Shown here one piece after another: positions 43,236-58,138 of a stretch of 64,000 bases of DNA. The DNA is from Cellvibrio mixtus subsp. mixtus J3-8 (GTDB lineage Bacteria > Pseudomonadota > Gammaproteobacteria > Pseudomonadales > Cellvibrionaceae). The notes beneath the pieces were generated by a model. The model was not told the origin of the DNA. It did no database searches and saw nothing but the letters and a program-made list of their open reading frames with translations. The translations under genes and the position numbers were made by a program. The stretch spans positions 1,142,444-1,206,443 of the forward strand of contig NZ_KN266207.1 of assembly GCF_000766945.1 (NCBI RefSeq), given 5' to 3'. Every line of letters begins with the position of its first letter. Position 1 is the stretch's first letter.

Positions 43236-44540
43236 ATGTCAATAAAAGCCCATTTACAGCATTGGCTGGATCGGATCGGATTGGAACATAACGAACAGGC
43301 TTATATGATCGCTGTGCTTCTAATCATCCTGCTCACGTCATTAGTAACCCATTGGTTGTTACATCGTGTGATATTGCGTTTTTTGCGCATTAGTGCAAAA
43401 ACGTCCCGACACCCTTGGGCCCAGTCGCTATATCGGCGAAAACTTTTTACGCGCCTGGCACTCACCTTACAAGGTTTTCTTATTTTCGCATTAGCGCGCT
43501 TTTTTCTGGAAAAAGATGCCCCGGAACTGCCCGTGTTCGAAATGCTGACTTATTTATGGGTATTGTTATTCGGGCTGCTTGCATTTTTTTCGCTGTTGGA
43601 CACGCTAGAAGATATTACTGCAACAACCGAAACCGGACGGCGATTCCCTCTGCGTGGTTTATTCCAAAGTTTCAAATTAATTGGATTTATTGTTGTACTC
43701 ATATTCTCCATTTCATTACTGATCGGGAAATCGCCCGTTATTTTATTCAGCGGCCTTGGTGCCATGACTGCCATTTTATTATTGGTATTTAAAGATCCCA
43801 TACTCGGGCTGGTTGCCGGTATCCAGTTATCAGCCAATAAAATGCTGCGGTTGGGTGATTGGGTAGAAATGCCCAAATACGGTGCCGACGGGGAAGTGAC
43901 GGATATCAATTTAACAACGGTAAAAGTACGCAATTGGGATAAAACCATAACCACAATTCCGACCTACGCGTTAATTTCAGATTCGTTTAAAAACTGGCGC
44001 GGTATGTCGGAATCCGGTGGTCGCCGTATTAAGCGAGCAATCCATATTGATGCAACCAGTGTGCGCTTTCTTAATGGTGAGGATATTATCCGTTTACGCA
44101 AGGCACAGTTACTCAGTGGTTATATAGAACAAAAGCTGACTGAAATCGATCAACACAATAGAGAAAAAAATATTGATATTGGTTCAATAACCAATGGTCG
44201 TCGATTAACAAATCTGGGCACTTTCCGTGCGTACCTGACGGCATACCTGAAAGCCAATCAATACATCCACCAGGATATGACTCACATGGTGCGACATTTA
44301 AGCCCGGGGGCGGAGGGAATCCCCATAGAAATTTATGCATTCACCAACAACACAGCCTGGCTCGCTTATGAAAATATCCAGGCCGATATTTTTGACCATG
44401 TTTTTGCTGTGTTACCGGAATTTGATTTGCGTGCTTATCAGTCACCTACCGGATATGACATTCAAGCGGTCGGCTTGGGTTTGCAAACAGCGTTAACCGG
44501 TTTCTCCAAACAGGAAAATAATCTTCATAAAAGGGATTAA
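43236..44540 (+). CDS. MscS-family mechanosensitive channel (YbdG/MscM-like)
   Basis: A 434-residue inner-membrane protein. About five membrane helices lie in residues 15-190, with the pore-lining helix in SGLGAMTAILLLVFKDPILGLVAG followed by the beta domain: LSANKMLRLGDWVEMPKYGADGEV and VRNWDKTITTIPTY are typical MscS sequences (fragments shown). The extended C-terminal domain and length resemble YbdG-type channels. They release solutes during osmotic downshock. ATG 43236 (GAGG close upstream) is preferred to TTG 43218. Confidence 0.92.
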   Translation: MSIKAHLQHWLDRIGLEHNEQAYMIAVLLIILLTSLVTHWLLHRVILRFLRISAKTSRHPWAQSLYRRKLFTRLALTLQGFLIFALARFFLEKDAPELPVFEMLTYLWVLLFGLLAFFSLLDTLEDITATTETGRRFPLRGLFQSFKLIGFIVVLIFSISLLIGKSPVILFSGLGAMTAILLLVFKDPILGLVAGIQLSANKMLRLGDWVEMPKYGADGEVTDINLTTVKVRNWDKTITTIPTYALISDSFKNWRGMSESGGRRIKRAIHIDATSVRFLNGEDIIRLRKAQLLSGYIEQKLTEIDQHNREKNIDIGSITNGRRLTNLGTFRAYLTAYLKANQYIHQDMTHMVRHLSPGAEGIPIEIYAFTNNTAWLAYENIQADIFDHVFAVLPEFDLRAYQSPTGYDIQAVGLGLQTALTGFSKQENNLHKRD

Positions 44541-44907
44541 TGAAGACGAAGTTTACATTTTAATAAAATGTGATTGTTATTCATTTCTCGATTGGGTGCG
44601 CTATTTATCCTCCCAAACCATAGCACACACATTTCATTATTTACGCTGGACTATTGTCACGTCTGAACGTGGCTTCCGAACCAGAAGCGTGCCGCATCTA
44701 ACACGAAAATAAACATTCGGATGTCGATGAACTGTGCGGCTGCACAATTAAATTTGGCAAAAAACCGAAGTGGTGGGGAATATATAAATTAATGTGATTG
44801 GATATTTAATTGAAGAGTTTTTTGAAATGCGGTTATAGAGCAATCATCTTATCCTGAGCCTTCATTGATGAAAATGTTTGGATTTTGCTGGCAACTGGAA
44901 CAATAAA
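44541..44907. other. Intergenic region without recognised gene
   Basis: Between the MscS-type gene (+) and the sucD terminator. It contains an AT-rich palindrome ACATTTTAATAAAATGT (about 44555-44571) that may end the channel transcript, and a short inverted repeat CACGT-CTGA-ACGTG near 44658-44672. I see no open reading frame with a ribosome site and no RNA gene. Confidence 0.5.
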
Positions 44908-44931
44908 AAAGGCGATCCGAAGATCGCCTTT
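44908..44931 (-). terminator. Intrinsic terminator of the suc gene cluster
   Basis: Stem AAAGGCGATC/GATCGCCTTT. In the minus-strand RNA the loop reads UUCG closed by C-G, a very stable tetraloop, followed by a T run (TTTATTG). Lies 28 bp beyond the sucD stop. Confidence 0.95.
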
Positions 44932-44958
44932 CTCGAAAAAACCGTTGGGTAAAATTAA

Positions 44959-45831
44959 TTACCAGCCAGTGATTTCTTTCAGTGCTTTACCAATGTCGGC
45001 CAGGCTCTTAACAGTTTTCACGCCAGCATCTTCCAATGCAGCAAATTTCTCATCAGCAGTACCTTTACCGCCAGAAATAATCGCACCGGCGTGACCCATG
45101 CGCTTACCGGCAGGTGCAGTTACACCAGCGATGTACGACACAACCGGCTTGGTCACGTTAGCTTTGATGAACGCAGCAGCTTCTTCTTCCGCAGAACCGC
45201 CAATCTCACCGATCATTACGATCGCTTCGGTTTGTGGGTCAGCCTGGAACAGCTTCAGGATGTCGATGAAGTTGGAGCCCGGGATTGGATCACCACCAAT
45301 ACCTACGCAAGTAGATTGGCCGAAACCGTAGTCAGTCGTTTGCTTCACAGCTTCATAAGTCAAAGTACCTGAACGTGAAACGATACCTACTTTACCTGGT
45401 TTGTGGATGTGGCCTGGCATGATGCCGATTTTGCACTCGCCCGGAGTGATAACGCCCGGGCAGTTAGGGCCAATCAAACGCACGCCCAATTCGTCACACT
45501 TCACTTTTGCGTCAAGCATATCGAGAGTCGGGATACCTTCGGTAATACACACGATCAACTTGATGCCGCCGTTAGCCGCTTCAAGGATTGAGTCTTTACA
45601 GAAAGGAGCCGGAACGTAGATTACCGATGCATCAGCACCGGTTGCAGCAACTGCTTCAGCAACAGTGTTGAACACTGGCAAGCCGAGGTGAGTTTGACCA
45701 CCCTTACCTGGAGTTACACCACCAACCATTTTGGTGCCGTAAGCAATCGCTTGTTCAGAATGGAAAGTACCTTGCGCACCGGTGAAACCCTGGCAAATTA
45801 CTTTGGTGTCTTTGTTAATTAAAACGCTCAT
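44959..45831 (-). CDS. sucD: Succinyl-CoA synthetase alpha subunit
   Basis: A 290-residue subunit that binds CoA and carries the phosphohistidine. The nucleotide-fold start [18 protein letters not shown] and the active-site region with [14 protein letters not shown] are present; the phosphorylated His lies in the latter motif. Forms the ADP- or GDP-linked ligase with SucC. Last gene of the sdh-suc cluster, 12 bp after sucC, with a strong UUCG-loop terminator downstream. Confidence 0.97.
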
Positions 45832-45843
45832 GTTCTTCGCCCC

Positions 45844-47010
45844 TTATTGATTCGCAGCAGCTGCAACAACTTTCTTGGCAGCGCCAGTCAAGTCGGTATC
45901 GGCAATGATGTTCAGGCCGCTTTCGCCCAACACTTTTGCACCCAATTCAGCATTGTTACCTTGCAAACGAACAACAACAGGTACTTTCACGCCTACCTCT
46001 TTAACCGCACCGATTACGCCTTCTGCGATCATGTCGCAACGTACGATACCGCCGAAGATGTTGATGAAAACGGCTTTAACCGCGTCATCAGACAAAATGA
46101 TTTTGAACGCTTCAACGACGCGCTCTTTGGTCGCACCACCGCCTACGTCGAGGAAGTTAGCGGGTTGGCCGCCGTGCAATTTAACGATGTCCATGGTACC
46201 CATCGCCAAACCAGCGCCGTTAACCATACAACCGATATCACCACCGAGTGCAACGTAGTTCAATTCCCACGCCGCAGCATGAGCTTCACGCGCATCTTCT
46301 TGTGATGGATCTTGCATTGCTTTCAATTCCGGATGACGGTACAGCGCATTGCCGTCGATTACCAATTTCGCATCCAGGCAGTGCAAGTTATCTTCCGGAG
46401 TAATTACCAGTGGGTTAACTTCCAACAGCGCCAAATCTTTCTCTTTGAAGAGTTTGGCAAGGCCGAGGAAAATATTAACGAATTGGTTGATTTGCTTACC
46501 TTCCAAACCGAGTTTGAACGCCAGATCGCGGCCCTGGAATGGCTGAGCGCCAACCAGCGGATCTACCGCAACTTTAAGGATTTTTTCTGGAGTGTCGTGC
46601 GCAACTTTCTCGATTTCTACACCACCTTCGGTAGAAGCCATGAATACGATGCGACGTGAGGAGCGATCTACCACTGCACCCAAATACAATTCTTTGGCGA
46701 TATCGGTGCAAGTCTCAACAAGGATACGGCTTACCGGCTGACCCTTTTCATCTGTCTGATAGGTCACCAGATTCTTGCCCAACCACTTTTCAGCGAAGGC
46801 TTTGATTTCGTCTTTGGATTTAACCAGTTTTACGCCGCCCGCTTTACCGCGGCCACCGGCGTGAACCTGGGCTTTAACGACGAACATATCGCCGCCGATT
46901 TGATCCGCAGCAGCAACAGCTTCTTCAACAGTCGCAGCAGCAATGCCTTTAGACACAGGCAAACCATATTGGGCAAACAGTTGCTTACCCTGATACTCGT
47001 GCAAATTCAT
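45844..47010 (-). CDS. sucC: Succinyl-CoA synthetase beta subunit
   Basis: A 388-residue ATP-grasp subunit. It shows [19 protein letters not shown] at the start, the ATP-binding [17 protein letters not shown] segment and the C-terminal [16 protein letters not shown]. Length equals that of the E. coli protein. It is separated from lpd by about 120 bp containing a 7-bp stem (GGCAAAC/GTTTGCC at 47080-47100) without a following T run. Confidence 0.97.
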
Positions 47011-47132
47011 GGTGTAGTTCCATTTGACGATGGTTGGATTAGCGTTTTAGTACACAGTCCAACTTGGGTTATCGATGGAGGCAAACCTTATGAGTTTGCC
47101 CCCGCCTAAAAAACGAGGACTCTATGGTTCTC

Positions 47133-48616
<1,484 letters not shown>

Positions 48617-48634
48617 CAGTAGCCCTTTACATAA

Positions 48635-48662
48635 AAACGCTCCTGGGTTGCCAGAAGCGTTT
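48635..48662 (-). terminator. Intrinsic terminator between sucB and lpd
   Basis: A 12-bp stem (AAACGCTTCTGG/CCAGGAGCGTTT on the minus strand, with one wobble pair) and four-base loop CAAC, followed by TTATG with the stem's own TTT. It separates sucB from lpd-sucCD. Confidence 0.75.
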
Positions 48663-48690
48663 CAAAACAACAGATTAGATTGCTAACAAC

Positions 48691-49890
48691 TTATATTTCC
48701 AAAAGAATGCGCGCAGGGTCTTCGAGCAGGTCTTTGATAGTAACGAGGAATTGCACAGCCTCTTTACCATCCAGCAAACGGTGATCGTAAGACAGGGCCA
48801 AATACATCATCGGCAGGATTTCTACCTTGCCATTGACTGCCATTGGACGCTCCTGGATCTTGTGCATACCCAGAATCGCCGATTGCGGCAGGTTCAGGAT
48901 TGGAGTGGAAAGCAGTGAACCAAACACACCACCGTTGGTGATAGTGAATGTACCACCCGACATTTCTTCAATGCCCAACTTGCCATCGCGTGCGCGCAAA
49001 CCAAAATCGCGAATGGTATTTTCAATTGTCGCCAGGCTCATATTTTCGGCGTTACGCAACACCGGAACTACCAGGCCTTTATCGGTAGATACCGCTACAC
49101 CGATATCCTGATAACCGTGGTACACGATATCGTTGTTATCGATAGAAGCGTTAACTGCCGGGAAACGACGCAATGCTTCAGCAGCGGCTTTTACAAAGAA
49201 ACTCATAAAGCCCAAACGTGAACCGCCGTGTGCTTTTTCAAATTGGTCTTTGTATTTTGCACGCAGTGCCATCACCGGGGCCATGTTCACTTCGTTAAAC
49301 GTAGTGAGCATCGCGGTAGTGTTGGAAGCTTCGAGCAGACGCTCGGCAATACGTTTGCGCAAACGGGTCATTGGTACACGTTTTTCAACGCGATCACCCA
49401 CTGCTTCAATAGCGGCAACCGGAGCAGCGGCAGCAGGTGCAGCAGCCGGGGTTGATTTGATGTGGTTGGCAACATCTTCTTTCAGCACGCGGCCATCTTT
49501 ACCAGAGCCAGCAACAGAAGACGTGTTTACGTTGTTTTCTTCAGCCAATTTGCGTGCAGCAGGATTGACCGGTTTTTCGGCAGATGCAGCCGCAGGAGCG
49601 CTTGCCGCTGCAGGAGCAGCCGCCGGTGCTGACACAGCAGGAGCACTAGCAGCACCTTCAACAAAACGGGCAATGACTTCGTTACTCAGGACAGTCTCAC
49701 CCTCGCCCTTCAAAATTTCAGCGATGCTGCCATCAGCAGGTGCAACAACTTCCAGTACCACCTTGTCAGTTTCAATATCAACAATCAGTTCATCGCGCTT
49801 GACAGCTTCGCCAGGTTTTTTGTGCCAGGTTGCTACCGTGCCATCAGCAACGGATTCAGGGAAGGTTGGGGCTTTGATTTCGATACTCAT
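48691..49890 (-). CDS. sucB: 2-oxoglutarate dehydrogenase E2, dihydrolipoyl succinyltransferase
   Basis: A 399-residue protein. Lipoyl domain (about 1-78) with the lipoylation Lys in ETDKVVLEV; an Ala/Pro-rich flexible linker; a peripheral-subunit-binding domain (about 110-145, [13 protein letters not shown]); a second Ala/Pro linker; and the catalytic acyltransferase domain ending in the active-site motif [12 protein letters not shown]. Forms the 24-mer core with SucA and Lpd. It follows sucA by 60 bp, where a hairpin covers the sucA stop. Confidence 0.97.
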
Positions 49891-49943
49891 GCTATTCCAT
49901 CTCTCTGTAGCGCTAGGATTATTTGATCAACTCAATCAGTTAA

Positions 49944-49968
49944 AAAGCTCTCACACAGTGAGAGCTTT
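49944..49968 (-). terminator. Terminator-like hairpin embracing the sucA stop codon
   Basis: An 11-bp perfect stem AAAGCTCTCAC/GTGAGAGCTTT with a three-base loop; on the minus strand it ends in TTTTTAACTG. The sucA stop TGA (49951-49953) lies inside the 3' arm, so translating ribosomes would melt it and poor translation would expose it. Confidence 0.7.
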
Positions 49969-52782
49969 GTTTACAAAACGTTTTTCTTCTTCGATATGCG
50001 CCGACATATAACCACCTGCCGGAGCTGCTGAAGGATCGCGACCTACGTAGTCCAAATGCAGTGACTTGCCGTAGACCTCGGCAACAACATGACGCATATG
50101 ATGCTGGCTGCTATACCACGCGCCCTGGTTCATTGGCTCTTCCTGGCACCAGAAAATATCCTTGATATTTTTGAACGGCGCGAGTGCTACTTTCAATTCT
50201 GCCTCAGGGAATGGATACAACTGCTCCAGACGAATCAGTGCAACATTGTCGAGGTTGCGCGCGGTGCGTTCTTCCAGCAAGGTGTAGTAAACCTTACCGC
50301 TACACAGAATTACACGCTGCACTTTTGCAGGATCAACACTTGCATCAGCAATGACGTTTTGGAAACTGCCGTTTGCCAATTCTTCCAGCGTCGATGTTGC
50401 CAATTTATGACGCAGCAAGGATTTCGGGCTCATTACCACCAATGGACGACGCATCGGGCGAACCGCCTGGCGGCGCAGCATGTGGAATACTTGCGCAGGC
50501 GTTGATGGTACACAAACCTGGATATTGTGTTCTGCACACAATTGCATAAAGCGTTCAAGGCGAGCTGATGAGTGCTCCGGGCCCTGCCCTTCATAACCAT
50601 GTGGCAACAACATAGTCAGGCCACTCAAGCGGCCCCACTTGTGTTCACCGCTGGTGATGAACTGGTCGATAACCACTTGTGCGCCGTTGGCAAAATCACC
50701 GAACTGGGCTTCCCAAATTACCAGGCCTTTTGGCGAGGTTGTGGAGTAACCATATTCGAATGCCAACACGGCTTCTTCAGATAAATAGGAGTCGAACAAC
50801 TCAAATGACGGTTGATCAGGTTTCATGTTTGCCAGAGCAACATACGCTGAACCATCTTTCTGGCTGTGCACCACGGCATGGCGATGTGAGAAAGTACCAC
50901 GACCAACGTCCTGGCCAGTCATACGCACAGGGTAACCTTGCTCTATCAAAGTGGCGTAAGCGAGGGTTTCAGCCATACCCCAGTTCAGCGGCAACGCACC
51001 ACCGGCCATTTTGCGGCGGTCTTCGTAAATTTTCTCTACTTGCTTTTGCAACACGATTCCATCGGGAATCTCGCACATTTTGTACGCGGCGGCTTGCAAT
51101 GCTTTTAATTCATAGCCGGTATTGGCTGGAGCAACCCAGTCATGGCCAATGTAAGGAGTCCAGTCAACAAATAATGTACGATCCGGCTCGCTCACCAAAC
51201 CACTGGCAACGTGTTCACCGCGATCCAGTGCCGCGCGATAGTTGGTGGTCAACTCGTCTGCCGCTGCTTGAGTCAACAGGTTCTGTGCAACCAGTTTTTC
51301 CGCATAAAGCGTGCGAGTTGTTTTGAGGGCACGGATGATCTGGTACATCAGCGGTTGGGTTGCTGATGGCTCGTCGGTTTCGTTATGGCCGCGACGGCGA
51401 TAGCAAACCAGATCGATCACTACATCCTTCTTGAATTCGTAGCGATAATCCATTGCCAGTTGGGCGATAAACAATACCGCTTCCGGATCATCACCATTTA
51501 CGTGGAAAATCGGGCATTCGATCATCTTGGCAACGTCAGTACAGTATTCTGTCGAACGCGCGTCTTCACGTTTGTTAGTGGTAAAACCAACCTGGTTGTT
51601 GATCACAATATGTAGCGTGCCGCCAGTACCGTAAGCGCGAGTCTGGGACATCTGGAATGTCTCCATCACCACACCTTGGCCAGCAAACGCTGCATCGCCG
51701 TGGATATTAATCGCAACTACTTTTGAGCCGGTTTTATCGTTACGACGATCCTGGCGCGCACGCACAGAACCTTCAACTACCGGAGAAACAATTTCCAAAT
51801 GCGACGGGTTAAACGCCATCGCCATATGCAATTCACCACCAGGAGTCATCACGTTGGATGAAAAACCCGAGTGATACTTCACGTCACCGGAAGTATTTAA
51901 TGAACGCTTGCCATCAAACTCGGCAAACAATTCTGCAGGGTTTTTACCGAACACATTAACCAATGTGTTCAAACGGCCACGGTGCGCCATACCCAATACG
52001 ATTTCTTTTGCACCGTAGGTACCCGCGCGTTTTACCAGCGCATCTACCAATGGAATGAAGCTCTCACCACCTTCAAGGCCGAAACGCTTGGTACCTGGAT
52101 ATTTACTATCAAGGTGACGCTCAAGGCCTTCCGCAGCGGTCAGACGTTCCAATAACGCCAAACGTTGTTCTTTGGTGAATTCCGGATTTGAACGAACGCT
52201 CTCAAGGCGTTGTTGCAACCATTGTTTTTCAGCCAATGGTGTGATGTGCATAATTTCAGCACCGATATGACCGCAATAGGTCTTCTCCAGTGCTTCAATA
52301 ATTTCACGCAGGGTTGCCTGCTCTTTACCGATAAACAAAGTGCCGCTGCTAAATACGGTATCCAGATCAGCATTAGTCAAACCGTGGAATTGCAAATCCA
52401 GATCTGCAACCGGCTCACGCACCATCAATCCCAATGGATCAAGTTGTGCTTTCTGGTGGCCGCGGAAACGATAGGAGCTGATTAATTGCAGAACTTTAAT
52501 TTGTTTTTGTTCGTGTTCTGCGCTCACTGAACCACCGGCAACAGTCACGGTGCGAACGCGGGATTTACCCAATTGCTCAAATTGAGCGCGAATCACTGAA
52601 TGGGGAGTATCCTGGGTCAGTACGCCGTTCACACGGGGCAACTGATCGAAGTAGTTACGCCATTCTTCAGGAACGGCATTAGGATTGTGTAAATACGTGT
52701 CGTAGAGCTCTTCGACGTAAGCAGCGTTCCCACCGGAGATGTGAGACGTACTCCAAAATTGCTCCATAATGCTGTCTTGCAT
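49951..52782 (-). CDS. sucA: 2-oxoglutarate dehydrogenase E1 component
   Basis: A 943-residue thiamine-diphosphate enzyme that decarboxylates 2-oxoglutarate. N-terminal MQDSIMEQFWSTSHISGGN and LRGHQ-type region (SYRFRGHQKAQLDPLG), ThDP-binding GHRGRLNTL-like segment (GMAHRGRLNTLVNV), HGDAAFAGQG and RRRGHNETDEP are all family features. An upstream in-frame start (52824) adds 14 residues foreign to the family; ATG 52782 with AAGGTGG was chosen. About 200 bp separate it from sdhB. Confidence 0.97.
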   Translation of the reverse strand: MQDSIMEQFWSTSHISGGNAAYVEELYDTYLHNPNAVPEEWRNYFDQLPRVNGVLTQDTPHSVIRAQFEQLGKSRVRTVTVAGGSVSAEHEQKQIKVLQLISSYRFRGHQKAQLDPLGLMVREPVADLDLQFHGLTNADLDTVFSSGTLFIGKEQATLREIIEALEKTYCGHIGAEIMHITPLAEKQWLQQRLESVRSNPEFTKEQRLALLERLTAAEGLERHLDSKYPGTKRFGLEGGESFIPLVDALVKRAGTYGAKEIVLGMAHRGRLNTLVNVFGKNPAELFAEFDGKRSLNTSGDVKYHSGFSSNVMTPGGELHMAMAFNPSHLEIVSPVVEGSVRARQDRRNDKTGSKVVAINIHGDAAFAGQGVVMETFQMSQTRAYGTGGTLHIVINNQVGFTTNKREDARSTEYCTDVAKMIECPIFHVNGDDPEAVLFIAQLAMDYRYEFKKDVVIDLVCYRRRGHNETDEPSATQPLMYQIIRALKTTRTLYAEKLVAQNLLTQAAADELTTNYRAALDRGEHVASGLVSEPDRTLFVDWTPYIGHDWVAPANTGYELKALQAAAYKMCEIPDGIVLQKQVEKIYEDRRKMAGGALPLNWGMAETLAYATLIEQGYPVRMTGQDVGRGTFSHRHAVVHSQKDGSAYVALANMKPDQPSFELFDSYLSEEAVLAFEYGYSTTSPKGLVIWEAQFGDFANGAQVVIDQFITSGEHKWGRLSGLTMLLPHGYEGQGPEHSSARLERFMQLCAEHNIQVCVPSTPAQVFHMLRRQAVRPMRRPLVVMSPKSLLRHKLATSTLEELANGSFQNVIADASVDPAKVQRVILCSGKVYYTLLEERTARNLDNVALIRLEQLYPFPEAELKVALAPFKNIKDIFWCQEEPMNQGAWYSSQHHMRHVVAEVYGKSLHLDYVGRDPSAAPAGGYMSAHIEEEKRFVNKALTV

Positions 52783-52975
52783 TCCACCCACCTTAATCTT
52801 TGGGGAATTATCCCCTGCTATCAACTAGCGGTTAGCTACCAAACGCTTTCAACTTGTGATTAAAAGCGCCGCTTTTAAGTCGCTATCACCCAAGGCGACA
52901 ACGGACAGTTTTTGATTAAACAAGCGCAAATCGCTCATCAAATCATCAAGTTTTTGCCTGCTTCAGATACGCAAA

Positions 52976-52996
52976 AGCGCCACCTTAGGTAGCGCT
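52976..52996 (-). terminator. Hairpin containing the sdhB stop codon in its loop
   Basis: On the minus strand AGCGCTACC pairs with GGTGGCGCT (one wobble) and the loop is exactly TAA, the sdhB stop. Only four Ts follow, so it may act as a weak terminator, RNA-stability element or attenuator between sdh and suc. Confidence 0.5.
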
Positions 52997-53689
52997 CTGT
53001 AACAACATGTTGCGTATATGGCCGATGGCTCGTGTCGGGTTCAGCCCTTTGGGGCAAACCGCTACACAGTTCTGGATACCATGGCAACGGAACACACTGA
53101 AGGGGTCATCCAGATTGGCCAATCGTTTCTGGGTCGCCAGGTCACGACTATCAGCGAGGAAACGATAAGCCTGCAACAAACCGGCAGGACCGATAAATTT
53201 ATCGGGGTTCCACCAGAAGGAAGGACAACTGGTTGAGCAACAGGCGCAGAGTATACACTCATAAAGGCCGTCAAGCTTCTCGCGATCTTCGGGAGATTGC
53301 AAACGCTCGATGGCCGGTGCGGGGGTATCGTTCTGCAAGTAGGGTTCAATTTTCTTGTATTGATCATAGAACTGGGTCATATCGACAACCAGATCGCGGA
53401 TCACTGGTAAACCAGGTAGTGGACGCAAAATCAGCGTGTTATTTTTCACGCATTCGGAAATTGGCTTGATACAAGCCAAACCATTTTTACCATTGATATT
53501 CATACCGTCAGAGCCGCACACACCTTCACGGCATGAACGACGGTATGCCAAAGACTGGTCCTGTGCTTTTAACAACTCAAGAACATCGAGCACCATCAGG
53601 TCTTTACCCTGGGTGTCGACCTCATATTCTTTCATGTAAGGCGCATTATCAGTTTCTGGGTTGTAGCGATAAACTTGTACTTTCAACAT
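52985..53689 (-). CDS. sdhB: Succinate dehydrogenase iron-sulfur subunit
   Basis: A 234-residue peripheral membrane subunit. The 2Fe-2S ligands are in CREGVCGSDG and NGLAC; the 4Fe-4S and 3Fe-4S ligands in CILCACCSTSCP and CHGIQNCVAVCPKGLNP. It passes electrons from SdhA flavin to ubiquinone at SdhCD. The start follows sdhA by 18 bp. Its stop lies in the loop of a hairpin before the sucA spacer. Confidence 0.97.
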   Translation of the reverse strand: MLKVQVYRYNPETDNAPYMKEYEVDTQGKDLMVLDVLELLKAQDQSLAYRRSCREGVCGSDGMNINGKNGLACIKPISECVKNNTLILRPLPGLPVIRDLVVDMTQFYDQYKKIEPYLQNDTPAPAIERLQSPEDREKLDGLYECILCACCSTSCPSFWWNPDKFIGPAGLLQAYRFLADSRDLATQKRLANLDDPFSVFRCHGIQNCVAVCPKGLNPTRAIGHIRNMLLQSAT

Positions 53690-53707
53690 GATTTCGGCTC
53701 CCGATGA

Positions 53708-55480
53708 TTAGTAAGTGCGTTTCTTGGGTTGGAAAGCTTCCATAGTGCGCGGTTTGAAATTCACCGCACGCTTGCCAACGCGCTTTTCGCCGGGGAAATA
53801 TATTGAGTGACACAGCCAATTGGCATCGTCACGGTCTTCGTAGTCTTCGCGTGCGTGTGCACCGCGGGACTCTTTACGCTCTTCGGCAGCGATCGCTGTC
53901 GCTTCAGCCACTTCAAGCAGGTTTTGCAATTCAAGCGCTTCAATACGTGCGGTATTGAATGCGTTGCTCTTGTCAGTGATCGCCACGTTTTCGATGCGCT
54001 TACGCAATTCAGCCAACTGCTCAATACCCTTCTGCATAAACTCACCTTTACGGAATACACCGAAGTAGTTTTGCATAATGGTTTGCAGCTCTTTACGCAG
54101 GACCGCTGCACTTTCGCCGCTGGTAGAGTTGTTGATTTTGTTCAGGCGCGCCATCGCTTTATCGATATCAGCCTGGGTTGCGTCGCGATGCTCAATACCT
54201 TCACGCAACGCCTTCTCGATGTACAAACCTGCTGCGCGACCAAACACCACCAGATCAAGCAATGAGTTACCGCCCAAACGGTTTGCACCGTGTACCGATA
54301 CGCAAGCTACTTCACCACAGGCAAAGAGGCCATCAATGACTACGTCATTACCGTTGGCATCAACGGTCAAAGCCTGGCCATTCACGTTGGTAGGAACACC
54401 ACCCATCATGTAGTGACAGGTTGGAACCACAGGGATTGGAGCGTAAACAGGATCAACGTGAGCAAAGGTACGGGACAATTCGCAGATGCCTGGCAACTTG
54501 CTCTCAAGAACTTCTTCACCGAGGTGATCCAGTTTCAGCAATACGTGATCTTTGTTCGGACCAACACCGCGACCCGCAATAATTTCCTGGATCATGGAAC
54601 GCGCTACTACGTCACGGCCAGCAAGGTCTTTCGCATTGGGGGCATAACGCTCCATGAAGCGCTCGCCATCAGAGTTGATCAGGTAACCGCCTTCACCGCG
54701 GCAACCTTCAGTTACCAATACCCCGGCACCGGCAATACCGGTCGGGTGGAACTGCCACATTTCGATATCCTGTACCGGGAAGCCGGCACGCAACGCCATA
54801 CCTACACCGTCACCGGTATTGATGTGGGCGTTGGTAGTAGACGCGTAGATGCGCCCTGCACCACCGGTCGCCAATACAGTTGCCTTGGCTTTTACATAAA
54901 CAGTTTCGCCATCTTCAATATTAATGGCGATAACACCAACCACAGCGCCATCGGCATTTTTAACCAGATCAACAGCAAACCACTCATTCAGGAATACCGT
55001 TTTATTCTTCAGGTTGCCTTGGTACAGGGTGTGAAGAAGAGCGTGGCCGGTACGGTCCGCCGCCGCACAAGTACGCGCAGCCTGGCCACCTTCGCCGAAG
55101 TTTTTGGATTGACCACCGAACGGGCGCTGGTAGATGCGGCCATTTTCAGTACGTGAGAATGGCAAGCCCATATGCTCAAGCTCAAATACCGCTTCAGGAC
55201 CAACAGAACACATATATTCAATTGCATCCTGGTCACCGATGTAATCTGAACCTTTTACAGTGTCATACATGTGCCAGCGCCAATCATCGTTCGGGTCAGC
55301 ACTGGCAATCGCACAAGTAATACCGCCCTGGGCAGATACGGTGTGCGAACGGGTTGGAAATACTTTGGTAATTACAGCTGTTTTGTAACCGGATTGGGCC
55401 AACTGCAATGCCGCGCGCATACCGGCGCCGCCGCCGCCAATCACAATACCGTCAAAAGAAATCGTGCGCATAGTAGACAT
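53708..55480 (-). CDS. sdhA: Succinate dehydrogenase flavoprotein subunit
   Basis: A 590-residue FAD subunit oxidising succinate to fumarate. FAD motif [13 protein letters not shown], covalent-FAD His in [11 protein letters not shown], substrate-binding region [21 protein letters not shown] (in parts) and TCHYMMGG are visible. The start overlaps the sdhD stop by one base (TAATG), so the genes are coupled. Long open frames antisense to it are shadows. Confidence 0.97.
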
Positions 55481-55851
55481 TAGTTAATTCCCCAAATCAC
55501 TTGAACACCCCAGACCAGATAGGTAACTGCTACAGCACCCAACACAATCTGCGCAAATATGCGTAAGAAGGTGGCTTTTGAACCCATCAGGCGCACGGTT
55601 AAATAATCAGTGAGCACCGCCCACAAACCAATCCACGCATGGGAAATAAAGGAAAGCAACGTAACGAGGGTAAATACACGCATCCATAATTGGTTATAGA
55701 GTGATTGCCACTGCTCAAACGTCAATTCAGGATTTAATACGAGATATACAACGATGAAGATGGTGTAAGCCGCCATCACGGCACCGCCGACGCGCTGGAT
55801 CAGCCAATCATAAAGGCCGCTACGTCCGAAACTGGTTACTGAAGTTACCAT
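55480..55851 (-). CDS. sdhD: Succinate dehydrogenase membrane anchor subunit D
   Basis: A 123-residue integral membrane subunit with three helices (about 20-40, 60-80, 95-118). The haem/quinone region reads [16 protein letters not shown], with the axial His. Start ATG 55851 has GGGAG seven bases upstream and overlaps the sdhC tail; a longer frame at 55905 is not needed. Stop overlaps the sdhA start by one base. Confidence 0.92.
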
Positions 55852-56219
55852 ACCCAAACTCCCGCCAATACAATCAATACGACAGCAACGCTTAATGCGA
55901 GCCATGCACCGGTTTTACCACCTTTCAAGGATTCACCAACGCCAAAATCCATAATGAGGTGACGGATACCCATCGCAGTGTGATAAGCCAACGCAGCTAA
56001 AACCACCCACAGGATAGCCTGACAAATTGGATTCGCCCCAAGATCGCGAATGCTATTGAATCCCTCTTGTGAATCCAGGCTGGCATCGAGCATCCATAAA
56101 AGGAAGGCAACACCTGCGAAGAGGAAAACGCCGGAAACACGATGAAGGATGGAAACGTAAGCGGTGATGGGAAGTTTGATAGTAGATATATCGAGGTTGA
56201 CAGGTCTTTTCTTGTTCAC
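55845..56219 (-). CDS. sdhC: Succinate dehydrogenase cytochrome b556 subunit C
   Basis: A 124-residue membrane subunit. The N-terminus NKKRPVNLDISTIKLPITAYVSILHRVSGV matches the family (shown as the pattern RPVNLD and SILHRVSG, with haem-binding His). Start is GTG 56219 with AGGTGAG upstream. First gene of the sdh-suc cluster, divergent from gltA. Overlaps sdhD by seven bases. Confidence 0.95.
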   Translation of the reverse strand: MNKKRPVNLDISTIKLPITAYVSILHRVSGVFLFAGVAFLLWMLDASLDSQEGFNSIRDLGANPICQAILWVVLAALAYHTAMGIRHLIMDFGVGESLKGGKTGAWLALSVAVVLIVLAGVWVW

Positions 56220-56857
56220 GGTCTATCTCACCTGGTTGCCCATCGCGGGCAGGTTTAAGAATAAGCGCTTCATTTTTATCACCGGAAAGTGACCTCTAAT
56301 GAAACACGCCCTGCAAGTCGCGCAGCATTATAGAGATTGACCTCTCGAAACACAAACAAAAAGCCGCACTCAAGTCTTCATAATCAAAGATGTGAAAATG
56401 ATTGCAGATATTTAACGAAATTTTTACACAAACCACTGATATTCATAAAAAATTTTCATGAAAATGCACTTCACGCGAGCATTTTTGTCGCCCTGGCCCC
56501 ACACCAGTGCAAAGAATTTTCGGTGATTTTTGACGACTCGCACCAGATAATTCAGATGACAATTAAAATTTAATAAAAGATAAAAGAAATTGCCCCCGGA
56601 TGTGCCAAAAACTTTCGCCTTAACAATCAAGTCATCTATAATGCCGCTCGCTAACGGCAGCGTCAGTAAAACCACAATAGCTGACTAGTCCATAAAAAGT
56701 AGCCAGCCCATAACGCCACTTGTAGAAAGTAGATATGAGTTTAGCTTTGATTTAAACGGCTAACTGCAGCAGACTACCTACAGTTTTTATTCGATGAGCA
56801 GAGCGAAACATGCTTCTCTCAAGCCTTAAGTCCAATCAGTAAGCACAGGAGTCAGTA
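56220..56857. promoter_or_regulatory. Divergent sdhC/gltA regulatory region
   Basis: 638 bp with no convincing gene. It should hold promoters for both TCA units. A TATAAT at 56637-56642 (plus) could be a -10 for gltA, but no matching -35 is convincing. A perfect 14-bp palindrome ATTTTCATGAAAAT lies at 56452-56465, a possible operator. The long spacer implies long leaders or several regulatory sites. Confidence 0.5.
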
Positions 56858-58138
56858 ATGACTGACAAGAAAGCACATCTCAAGATTGATGGCATTGATA
56901 CGACGATTGAATTACCTATTTATTCAAGCACTATCGGCCCTGATGTTATCGACGTTACCAGTATTACCAAGAATGGCTTTTTCACGTTTGACCCGGGCTT
57001 TATGTCCACCGCCTCATGCGAATCGAAGATTACGTTTATTGATGGCGATGAAGGTGTGTTACTCCACCGCGGTTACCCGATTGAACAACTGGCTGTCTCC
57101 TCTGATTACATCGAAACCTGTTACCTCCTCCTGAATGGCGAATTGCCAACCCCGGCGCAAAAAGAAGAATTCACTGCCGAAGTTAAAAAACATTCTGTTG
57201 TAGATCCTTCCGTTGCCAACATCATTAAAAGCTTCAAGCGCGAATCCCATCCGATGGCAATCCTGTGTAGCGCTGTGGCTGCATTGGCGGCGGTATACAA
57301 CGATGAAATCGACATTACCAATGCCGAGAGCCGCAAGCTCACCGCCTATCGCCTGATCGGCCAAATCGCCACGCTCTCATCCATGGTTTACAAACATCGC
57401 AAAGGCGAAGAGTTTGTAGCACCGGATAGCAATCTTGATTACGCCGAAAATTTCCTGAACATGACCTTCGGCACCGCTGGCCAACCTTCCAGTGTCAGCA
57501 AAACCATTGCCAAGGCAATGGACAGGATCTTTATCCTGCACGCTGATCATGAACAAAATGCGTCAACGTCAACTGTTCGTTTGTCCGGTTCATCAGGCAC
57601 CAATCCTTTCGCTGCGATTGCCGCCGGTATTTCAACACTCTGGGGCCCGGCCCATGGCGGCGCCAACGAAGCCGTGCTGGAAATGCTGGAAGAAATCGGT
57701 ACTGTTGAAAACATTGAGGCATGTGTTGCCCGCGCTAAAGATAAAACCTCTGGCTTCCGCCTGATGGGCTTCGGTCACCGTGTGTACAAAAACTTTGACC
57801 CGCGCGCCAAAGTAATGAAACAAACCTGCGATGAAGTATTGTCTGAATTAGGCCTGGAGAATGAGCCATTACTTGCGATTGCGAAACGCCTTGAGCAAAT
57901 CGCGCTGGAAGATCCCTATTTCATCTCCAAAAAACTTTATCCAAACGTAGACTTCTACTCAGGCATTATCATGAAAGCAATCGGTATTCCGACCGAAATG
58001 TTCACTGTGATTTTTGCCTTGGGTCGCGCTGTGGGTTGGTACTCCCATTGGAATGAAATGGTTAGCACCTCTTACAAAATTGGTCGCCCGCGTCAGCAAT
58101 ATACCGGTAGCCCAAAGCGCGACTATCCTAAAAAATAG
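56858..58138 (+). CDS. gltA: Citrate synthase
   Basis: A 426-residue type II (hexameric, NADH-sensitive) citrate synthase, first step of the TCA cycle. Catalytic histidines lie in [15 protein letters not shown] and in [14 protein letters not shown], and the C-terminal catalytic Asp in YPNVDFYSG (all within the expected order). A good ribosome site precedes ATG 56858. Divergent from sdhCDAB across a 638-bp region, with a bidirectional terminator downstream. Confidence 0.98.

Follow-up and report, generated by a model that had tools for sequence, protein, structure and literature searches.

The stop codon of sucA in Cellvibrio mixtus subsp. mixtus J3-8 lies within a hairpin that, to judge from the sequence comparisons below, is under selection as part of the mRNA, because the stem is retained among relatives, both sides of some of its pairs have changed together, a leucine codon and the TGA stop are frozen, and the sequence following the stop fits its own gene end better than swapped sequence does. 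We suggest, with about even confidence, that this conserved stem-loop of the sdh-suc mRNA is an intercistronic hairpin that is masked by the ribosome and acts as a pause site and a 3'-end barrier. Both junctions flanking sucA bear a stop-codon hairpin.

The window (the whole 64,000-nucleotide stretch of DNA analysed, from a genome of 5.18 Mb) has sdhA, sdhB, sucA, sucB, a dihydrolipoyl dehydrogenase gene (lpd), sucC and sucD on its minus strand, and from the gene order we infer that sucA and sucB would be co-transcribed. The sucA stop is followed by the sucB start after 60 nt on the same strand, which is the setting of a galE-type intercistronic hairpin, and sucB has a purine-rich stretch of its own upstream of its start. 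Note that the listed open reading frame of sucA begins further upstream, at TTG 52824, than the start assumed here. The features of the two junctions are as follows.

52974..52998, minus strand: hairpin at the sdhB stop codon (sdhB-sucA junction), an 11-pair stem with two G-U pairs, followed by a T run
49951..52782, minus strand: sucA, 2-oxoglutarate dehydrogenase E1 (ATG at 52782 assumed as the start)
49958..49968, minus strand: 5' arm of the sucA hairpin, AAAGCTCTCAC, the last sucA codons (Lys-Ala-Leu-Thr)
49955..49957, minus strand: loop of the sucA hairpin, 3 nt, TGT (sense)
49944..49954, minus strand: 3' arm of the sucA hairpin, GTGAGAGCTTT, the last sucA base, the stop codon and seven non-coding bases
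49951..49953, minus strand: sucA stop codon TGA, paired within the 3' arm
49942..49946, minus strand: T run after the sucA hairpin, 5 T, a sub-canonical U tract
48691..49890, minus strand: sucB, dihydrolipoyl succinyltransferase, the next gene

The sense (minus) strand from 49968 to 49944 reads AAAGCTCTCAC-TGT-GTGAGAGCTTT, in which 11 of 11 pairs are perfect around the 3-nt loop. These are the first 25 bases of the longer sense-strand read at the sucA end, AAAGCTCTCAC-TGT-GTGAGAGCTTTTTAACTG. The first-pass annotation of this DNA had described an 11-bp perfect stem with the stop codon inside, and the sequence confirmed this, the genes being on the minus strand. The contiguous stop-spanning stem (-14.7 kcal/mol) is also of the kind expected of an intrinsic terminator, having at least 5 pairs, GC pairs among them and a short loop. 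The trailing Ts that had been described as well were borne out in part: the T run (49946-49942) starts after the last GC pair and gives five Ts from there, but three of them pair with the AAA codon and only two lie beyond the 11-bp stem. Directly 3' of the hairpin, a small AT-rich second hairpin (UUAACU-GAUUG-AGUUGA; window 49927-49943, minus strand) takes up these last two Us, and comparable weak folds were seen in several relatives.

Within the genome itself, the stem was compared with shuffled sequences and with other gene ends. None of 100 shuffles of the sucA-sucB gap matched the real stem, and when the coding side was kept fixed and the 30 nt downstream were shuffled, two runs gave p = 0.027 and 0.020. 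Among 46 gene ends in the window (taken, like the stops and same-strand gaps surveyed in this genome and the gene ends of the second shuffle run, by a greedy pick of long open reading frames rather than from annotation), only the stem at sdhB (-15.9 kcal/mol, 11 pairs) exceeded that at sucA, the third best being -8.9 kcal/mol. Across an 800-kb sample of this genome, stop-spanning stems of -14.7 kcal/mol or stronger occurred at 6 of 571 stops, and 4 of 1713 internal control positions reached -14 kcal/mol. A significant stop-spanning stem was found in 3 of 93 same-strand gaps, in which a hairpin of any kind was common (25/93). With so few stops (6/571) and same-strand gaps (3/93) affected, a general stop-codon feature of this genome was rejected. 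The fold of 115 nt of the sense strand was unremarkable (z -0.63, 41 of 200 shuffles equally good), and therefore the signal of the sucA hairpin is local; a z of -3.7, equalled by none of 200 shuffles, belongs to the fold of the plus strand and not to that of the sense strand. A dispersed repeat or uptake-type hairpin was also rejected, since the exact core is single-copy in the genome and a search of the window with up to 3 mismatches returned no copy besides the sucA site itself.

The same survey of gene ends contained other strong cases. The gene end at 5789-6817 of L225 (G000:C1:445789-446817, plus strand) has a strong stop-spanning stem, AGGGGGGAT-tta-ATCCCCCCT, with a T-rich tail, 28 nt ahead of the next same-strand open reading frame. 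Among the 571 sampled ends, the stop-spanning stem at 15644-16390 of L234 (G000:C1:635644-636390, plus strand; 14 pairs, -21.4 kcal/mol) was the strongest, and the next same-strand open reading frame is 10 nt away.

Conservation was examined in the 20 genomes of the genus, out of 21, that had a sucA match; 13 of these form a clade (clade A) supported at 99/96. The same stem was retained in all 13, with p < 0.05 in each, and 96.7% of the cells of their alignment were paired. The 3' arm covaries with the 5' arm, double-sided changes occurring at three of the 11 pairs. None of 500 shuffles attained the covariation score (0.164), and 7 of 500 reached three double-changed pairs (mean, 1.0), in a procedure that ignores the relatedness of the rows. 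At the main covarying pair, U-A is set against G-U and A-U; this split follows one supported subclade and is probably a single event, and two of the three double changes come from a single genome, L092. Therefore, the number of independent paired-change events is small.

The codons of the 5' arm were examined within the last 182 sucA codons of the 13 clade A genomes. Of 123 sites invariant in amino acid (Met and Trp aside), 11 have one codon in all 13 genomes. Among the 16 invariant leucine sites, the one in the stem is alone in having a single codon throughout (CTC in 13/13), and CTC is rare, making up 8.9% of the leucine codons in the genome sample. The alanine codon beside it varies (GCT, GCG, GCA), and the partner base changes with it. 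The sucA stop was TGA in all 13 genomes, and TGA accounts for 139 of the 571 stops in the genome sample.

These data bear on two explanations that would dispense with a selected RNA structure. A chance hairpin could have been inherited by descent with its 5' arm held by the protein; equally strong stop-spanning stems at about 1% of the genome's stops are compatible with this, as are the close relationship of several clade members and the few independent paired changes. However, the synonymous freezing together with paired changes over long branches, and the better fit of the native downstream sequence described below, argue against such a history, which we consider very improbable. The other explanation, that a regulator binds the site as a DNA dyad, receives hardly any credence from us. 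A near-perfect palindrome could suit a dimer, but at the main covarying pair a dyad-breaking G-U is present in 5 of the 11 distinct rows of clade A, the sequence drifts between lineages while the pairing stays, and the exact core has no second copy. The G-U pairs in the sucA and sdhB stems are thus better explained by pairing within the sense RNA than by a DNA dyad.

To cover the wider family, 90 distinct genomes among the 142 with a sucA match were examined, comprising the 20 of the genus and 70 others that were chosen partly by rank and partly by hand (L113 was left out as a duplicate of L101). The seven genus genomes not in clade A have other folds around the stop, with p < 0.05 in four of them (e.g. 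L097 and L099). A stop-spanning stem with p < 0.05 was found in 17 of the 70 non-genus genomes, versus 3 of 78 other junctions. The latter came from a set of 80 loci, of which 78 had enough sequence for the stem and swap tests; because the set retains the family members L003 (= G075) and L005 (= G021), and possibly other near kin, the contrast with the family is weakened and not inflated. The swap control asks whether a gene end pairs better with the sequence that follows its own stop than with post-stop sequences taken from other genera. Over the 90 family genomes, the mean was -5.62 kcal/mol with the own and -1.64 kcal/mol with the swapped sequence, own stems being stronger also when counted by genus (27 genera; Wilcoxon one-sided p 0.0023), and 25 of the 90 fell into the top 5% of the test, whereas the 78 other junctions showed no effect (-1.14 versus -0.95 kcal/mol, p 0.99). 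These comparisons indicate that the stop-spanning stem is a lineage feature wandering in register and not a universal one, since several genera (g2, g9, g15, g17 and g24 in the swap analysis) lack a contiguous stem and in 13 family genomes a significant hairpin is located further down the sucA-sucB gap instead.

That hairpins of the sucA-sucB gap might be special beyond the family was considered and dropped: they were present in 17 of 51 gaps (77 other loci with a sucB start, 26 of them skipped for gap length) versus 25 of the 93 same-strand gaps of the Cellvibrio genome itself. Some individual gaps have strong hairpins (-19 to -27 kcal/mol) about 10-43 nt past the stop, namely L009, L012 and L014 (Pseudomonas) and L016 (Thiopseudomonas); a U tract is absent at the first three, and L016 has a T-rich tail.

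At the sdhB-sucA junction, the loop of the hairpin is the sdhB stop TAA itself (52985-52987), and no stop-spanning stem of at least 5 pairs was found at the stops of sdhA, sucB, lpd and sucC. For sdhB, 30 loci were fetched from 141 family genomes with a match, and the counts are confined to the rows of the genus. The hairpin was retained in 19 of the 19 genus genomes (of 21) in which sdhB was found, and the stem survives indels in the loop, including a long insertion in L187. The shuffle p of this site was only 0.104, and one-sided changes are present with no double changes among them, so covariation gives no support here, and the support comes from the 19/19 retention through loop indels. In the 18 genus rows scored, 5-6 of the 8 residues after the stem are T. 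On a wider reading for this genus, which we regard as doubtful, the sucA cistron would be bracketed by two conserved stop hairpins that are melted by every terminating ribosome and act as gated switches tuning the stoichiometry of 2-oxoglutarate dehydrogenase; pausing, termination or 3'-end formation ahead of a gene would then be set directly by the translation flux of the TCA gene before it.

Whether the sucA hairpin works as a terminator depends on its U tract. At the sucA site, five of the eight residues that follow the GC stem are T. The clearest terminators of this genome, which make up 26 of the 89 stems scored in convergent gaps, have 7-8 T among these eight, so the tract is not on a par with theirs, and the site was not listed by a consensus terminator scan. 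In 11 of the 13 clade A genomes, 5-6 of the 8 residues are T, with 4-5 Us after the GC stem. The other two retain the stem: L090 is left with three Ts, each of them paired to the AAA codon, and L092 has no U tract, one A-U pair having turned into G-C, so that the pairing was preserved while the tract was lost. Among the stop-spanning stems scored in other lineages (L097, L099, L107, L112, L128, L137 and L147), none is followed by more than 3 T in 8 residues. The U tract is thus not conserved jointly with the stem, being lost or unusable in 2 of 13 clade A genomes, and the stem appears to be selected independently of it, as indicated on the side of the tract by L090, L092 and the other lineages. 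Evolution seems to have retained the sucA stem more than the U tract. We do not consider the hairpin a canonical terminator because the tract is short, lost or fully paired in two of 13 genomes and missing from the stems scored in other lineages, although weak termination may occur in this species. The tail score of the site (4.71) is nevertheless not a poor one.

The annotation had further proposed a switch in which read-through into sucB depends on the translation of sucA. The stem extends from -15 to +9 relative to the stop and would lie within the stretch that a terminating ribosome covers, so the geometry on which the proposal was based, a ribosome finishing sucA covering the stem, is right. 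As a weak, translation-gated intrinsic terminator, the hairpin would be melted when sucA is translated, and sucB would be read; when sucA is untranslated, the hairpin and its five Us would terminate transcription. Besides the position of the stem, the U tracts at both junctions in the genus (4-5 Us in 11 of 13 at sucA, 5-6 T of 8 at sdhB) are more easily explained by termination and speak against a pause or barrier, and the tail score is equalled by only 32-36 of the 89 convergent-gap stems. On the other hand, the T content is below that of the clearest own terminators, the tract is unusable in L090, absent in L092 and poor in the other lineages scored, and the terminator scan passed over the site. 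Rho-dependent polarity is, moreover, possible without a hairpin terminator, so Rho alone would produce polarity. A precedent is found in E. coli, where, according to passages of Li et al., a terminator a few bp past the stop was almost completely repressed and uncoupling of translation abolished the repression (PMC4824070), which makes translation gating plausible. We regard the gated terminator as possible rather than probable; geometry and precedent favour the proposed switch, and its terminator half is weak.

An effect on translation itself was also considered: a structured stop might slow the ribosome, improve the fidelity of termination, or prevent sliding of the 30S subunit or reinitiation at sucB. 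The stop codon does lie within the stem or the loop in the strong cases, and in E. coli, as reported in parts of PMC4619774, structure is enriched just upstream of stops and the stop regions of operon genes are more structured. However, PMC4619774 describes the effect for genes ending in UAA and upstream of the stop, whereas the codon here is TGA, and sucB starts 60 nt away with its own purine-rich stretch. We think such an effect unlikely to be the main role of the hairpin.

The pause-and-barrier reading is ranked first, the gated terminator second, the translation effect third and chance or a DNA site last, because selection seems to act more strongly on the stem than on the U tract. In the pause-and-barrier reading, a ribosome finishing sucA would hide the whole stem, so the hairpin would fold only after the ribosome had departed or when none had come. 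Once formed, it would mark off the sucA part of the message from the sucB part. It may prolong a pause of RNA polymerase at the junction, and it would stop 3'-to-5' exonucleases arriving from cleaved or Rho-terminated ends in sucB. As the outcome, mRNA ending at sucA would remain and the sucA:sucB ratio would be adjusted, possibly with an effect on the ratio of the enzymes. In this species, with its five Us, a small fraction of transcripts may terminate as well. Unequal output of the subunits of one enzyme complex from an operon is an old question. A stop-containing hairpin that shifts its register across part of a family and occurs at two successive junctions makes a natural test series, in which one could ask whether pausing, 3'-end formation or termination between cistrons is under the control of terminating ribosomes.

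Among known RNA structures, the Rfam motifs sucA-II and sucC are located upstream of their genes. A scan of 44500-57500 against Rfam gave no family above threshold, the one weak match being MicX (44897-45021, 20 bits versus a gathering score of 75), and a known RNA family, including sucA-II and sucC, was rejected for want of a covariance-model match above threshold. As named in portions of PMC2864571, these two motifs are likewise RNA structures associated with the suc genes of Gammaproteobacteria. None of the matches listed in open-licence PMC was a paper on the sucA-sucB junction in Cellvibrio. The sdhCDAB-sucABCD transcript of E. coli is processed by RNase III 5' of sucA (Cunningham and Guest 1998, as cited in an excerpt of PMC5371410); the operon is the same and the processing point is just before sucA, but that is another junction than sucA-sucB, and the stems here are short (about 11 bp). 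With the Rho-independent terminators near or over stops that appear in passages of PMC4824070, the sucA hairpin shares a GC stem, some Us and a geometry that a ribosome can mask, and it differs in a U tract that is shorter than the clearest ones of its genome and is not conserved with the stem. The E-hairpin of galE in the E. coli gal operon is likewise a short stem-loop (about 8 bp with a 4-nt loop) near a cistron junction; in the sections of PMC9239205 and PMC11925234 consulted, mutation showed that it is needed for the galE mRNA 3' end, and it was proposed to prolong the pause of RNA polymerase and to block exonucleases. It lies about 100 nt past the galE stop, inside galT, and not on a stop codon, so the analogy is partial, whereas the sucA hairpin, known from sequence alone, contains the stop. 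The sucA hairpin thus falls into a known class of RNA signals, and it is unusual in that the structure includes the stop codon itself.
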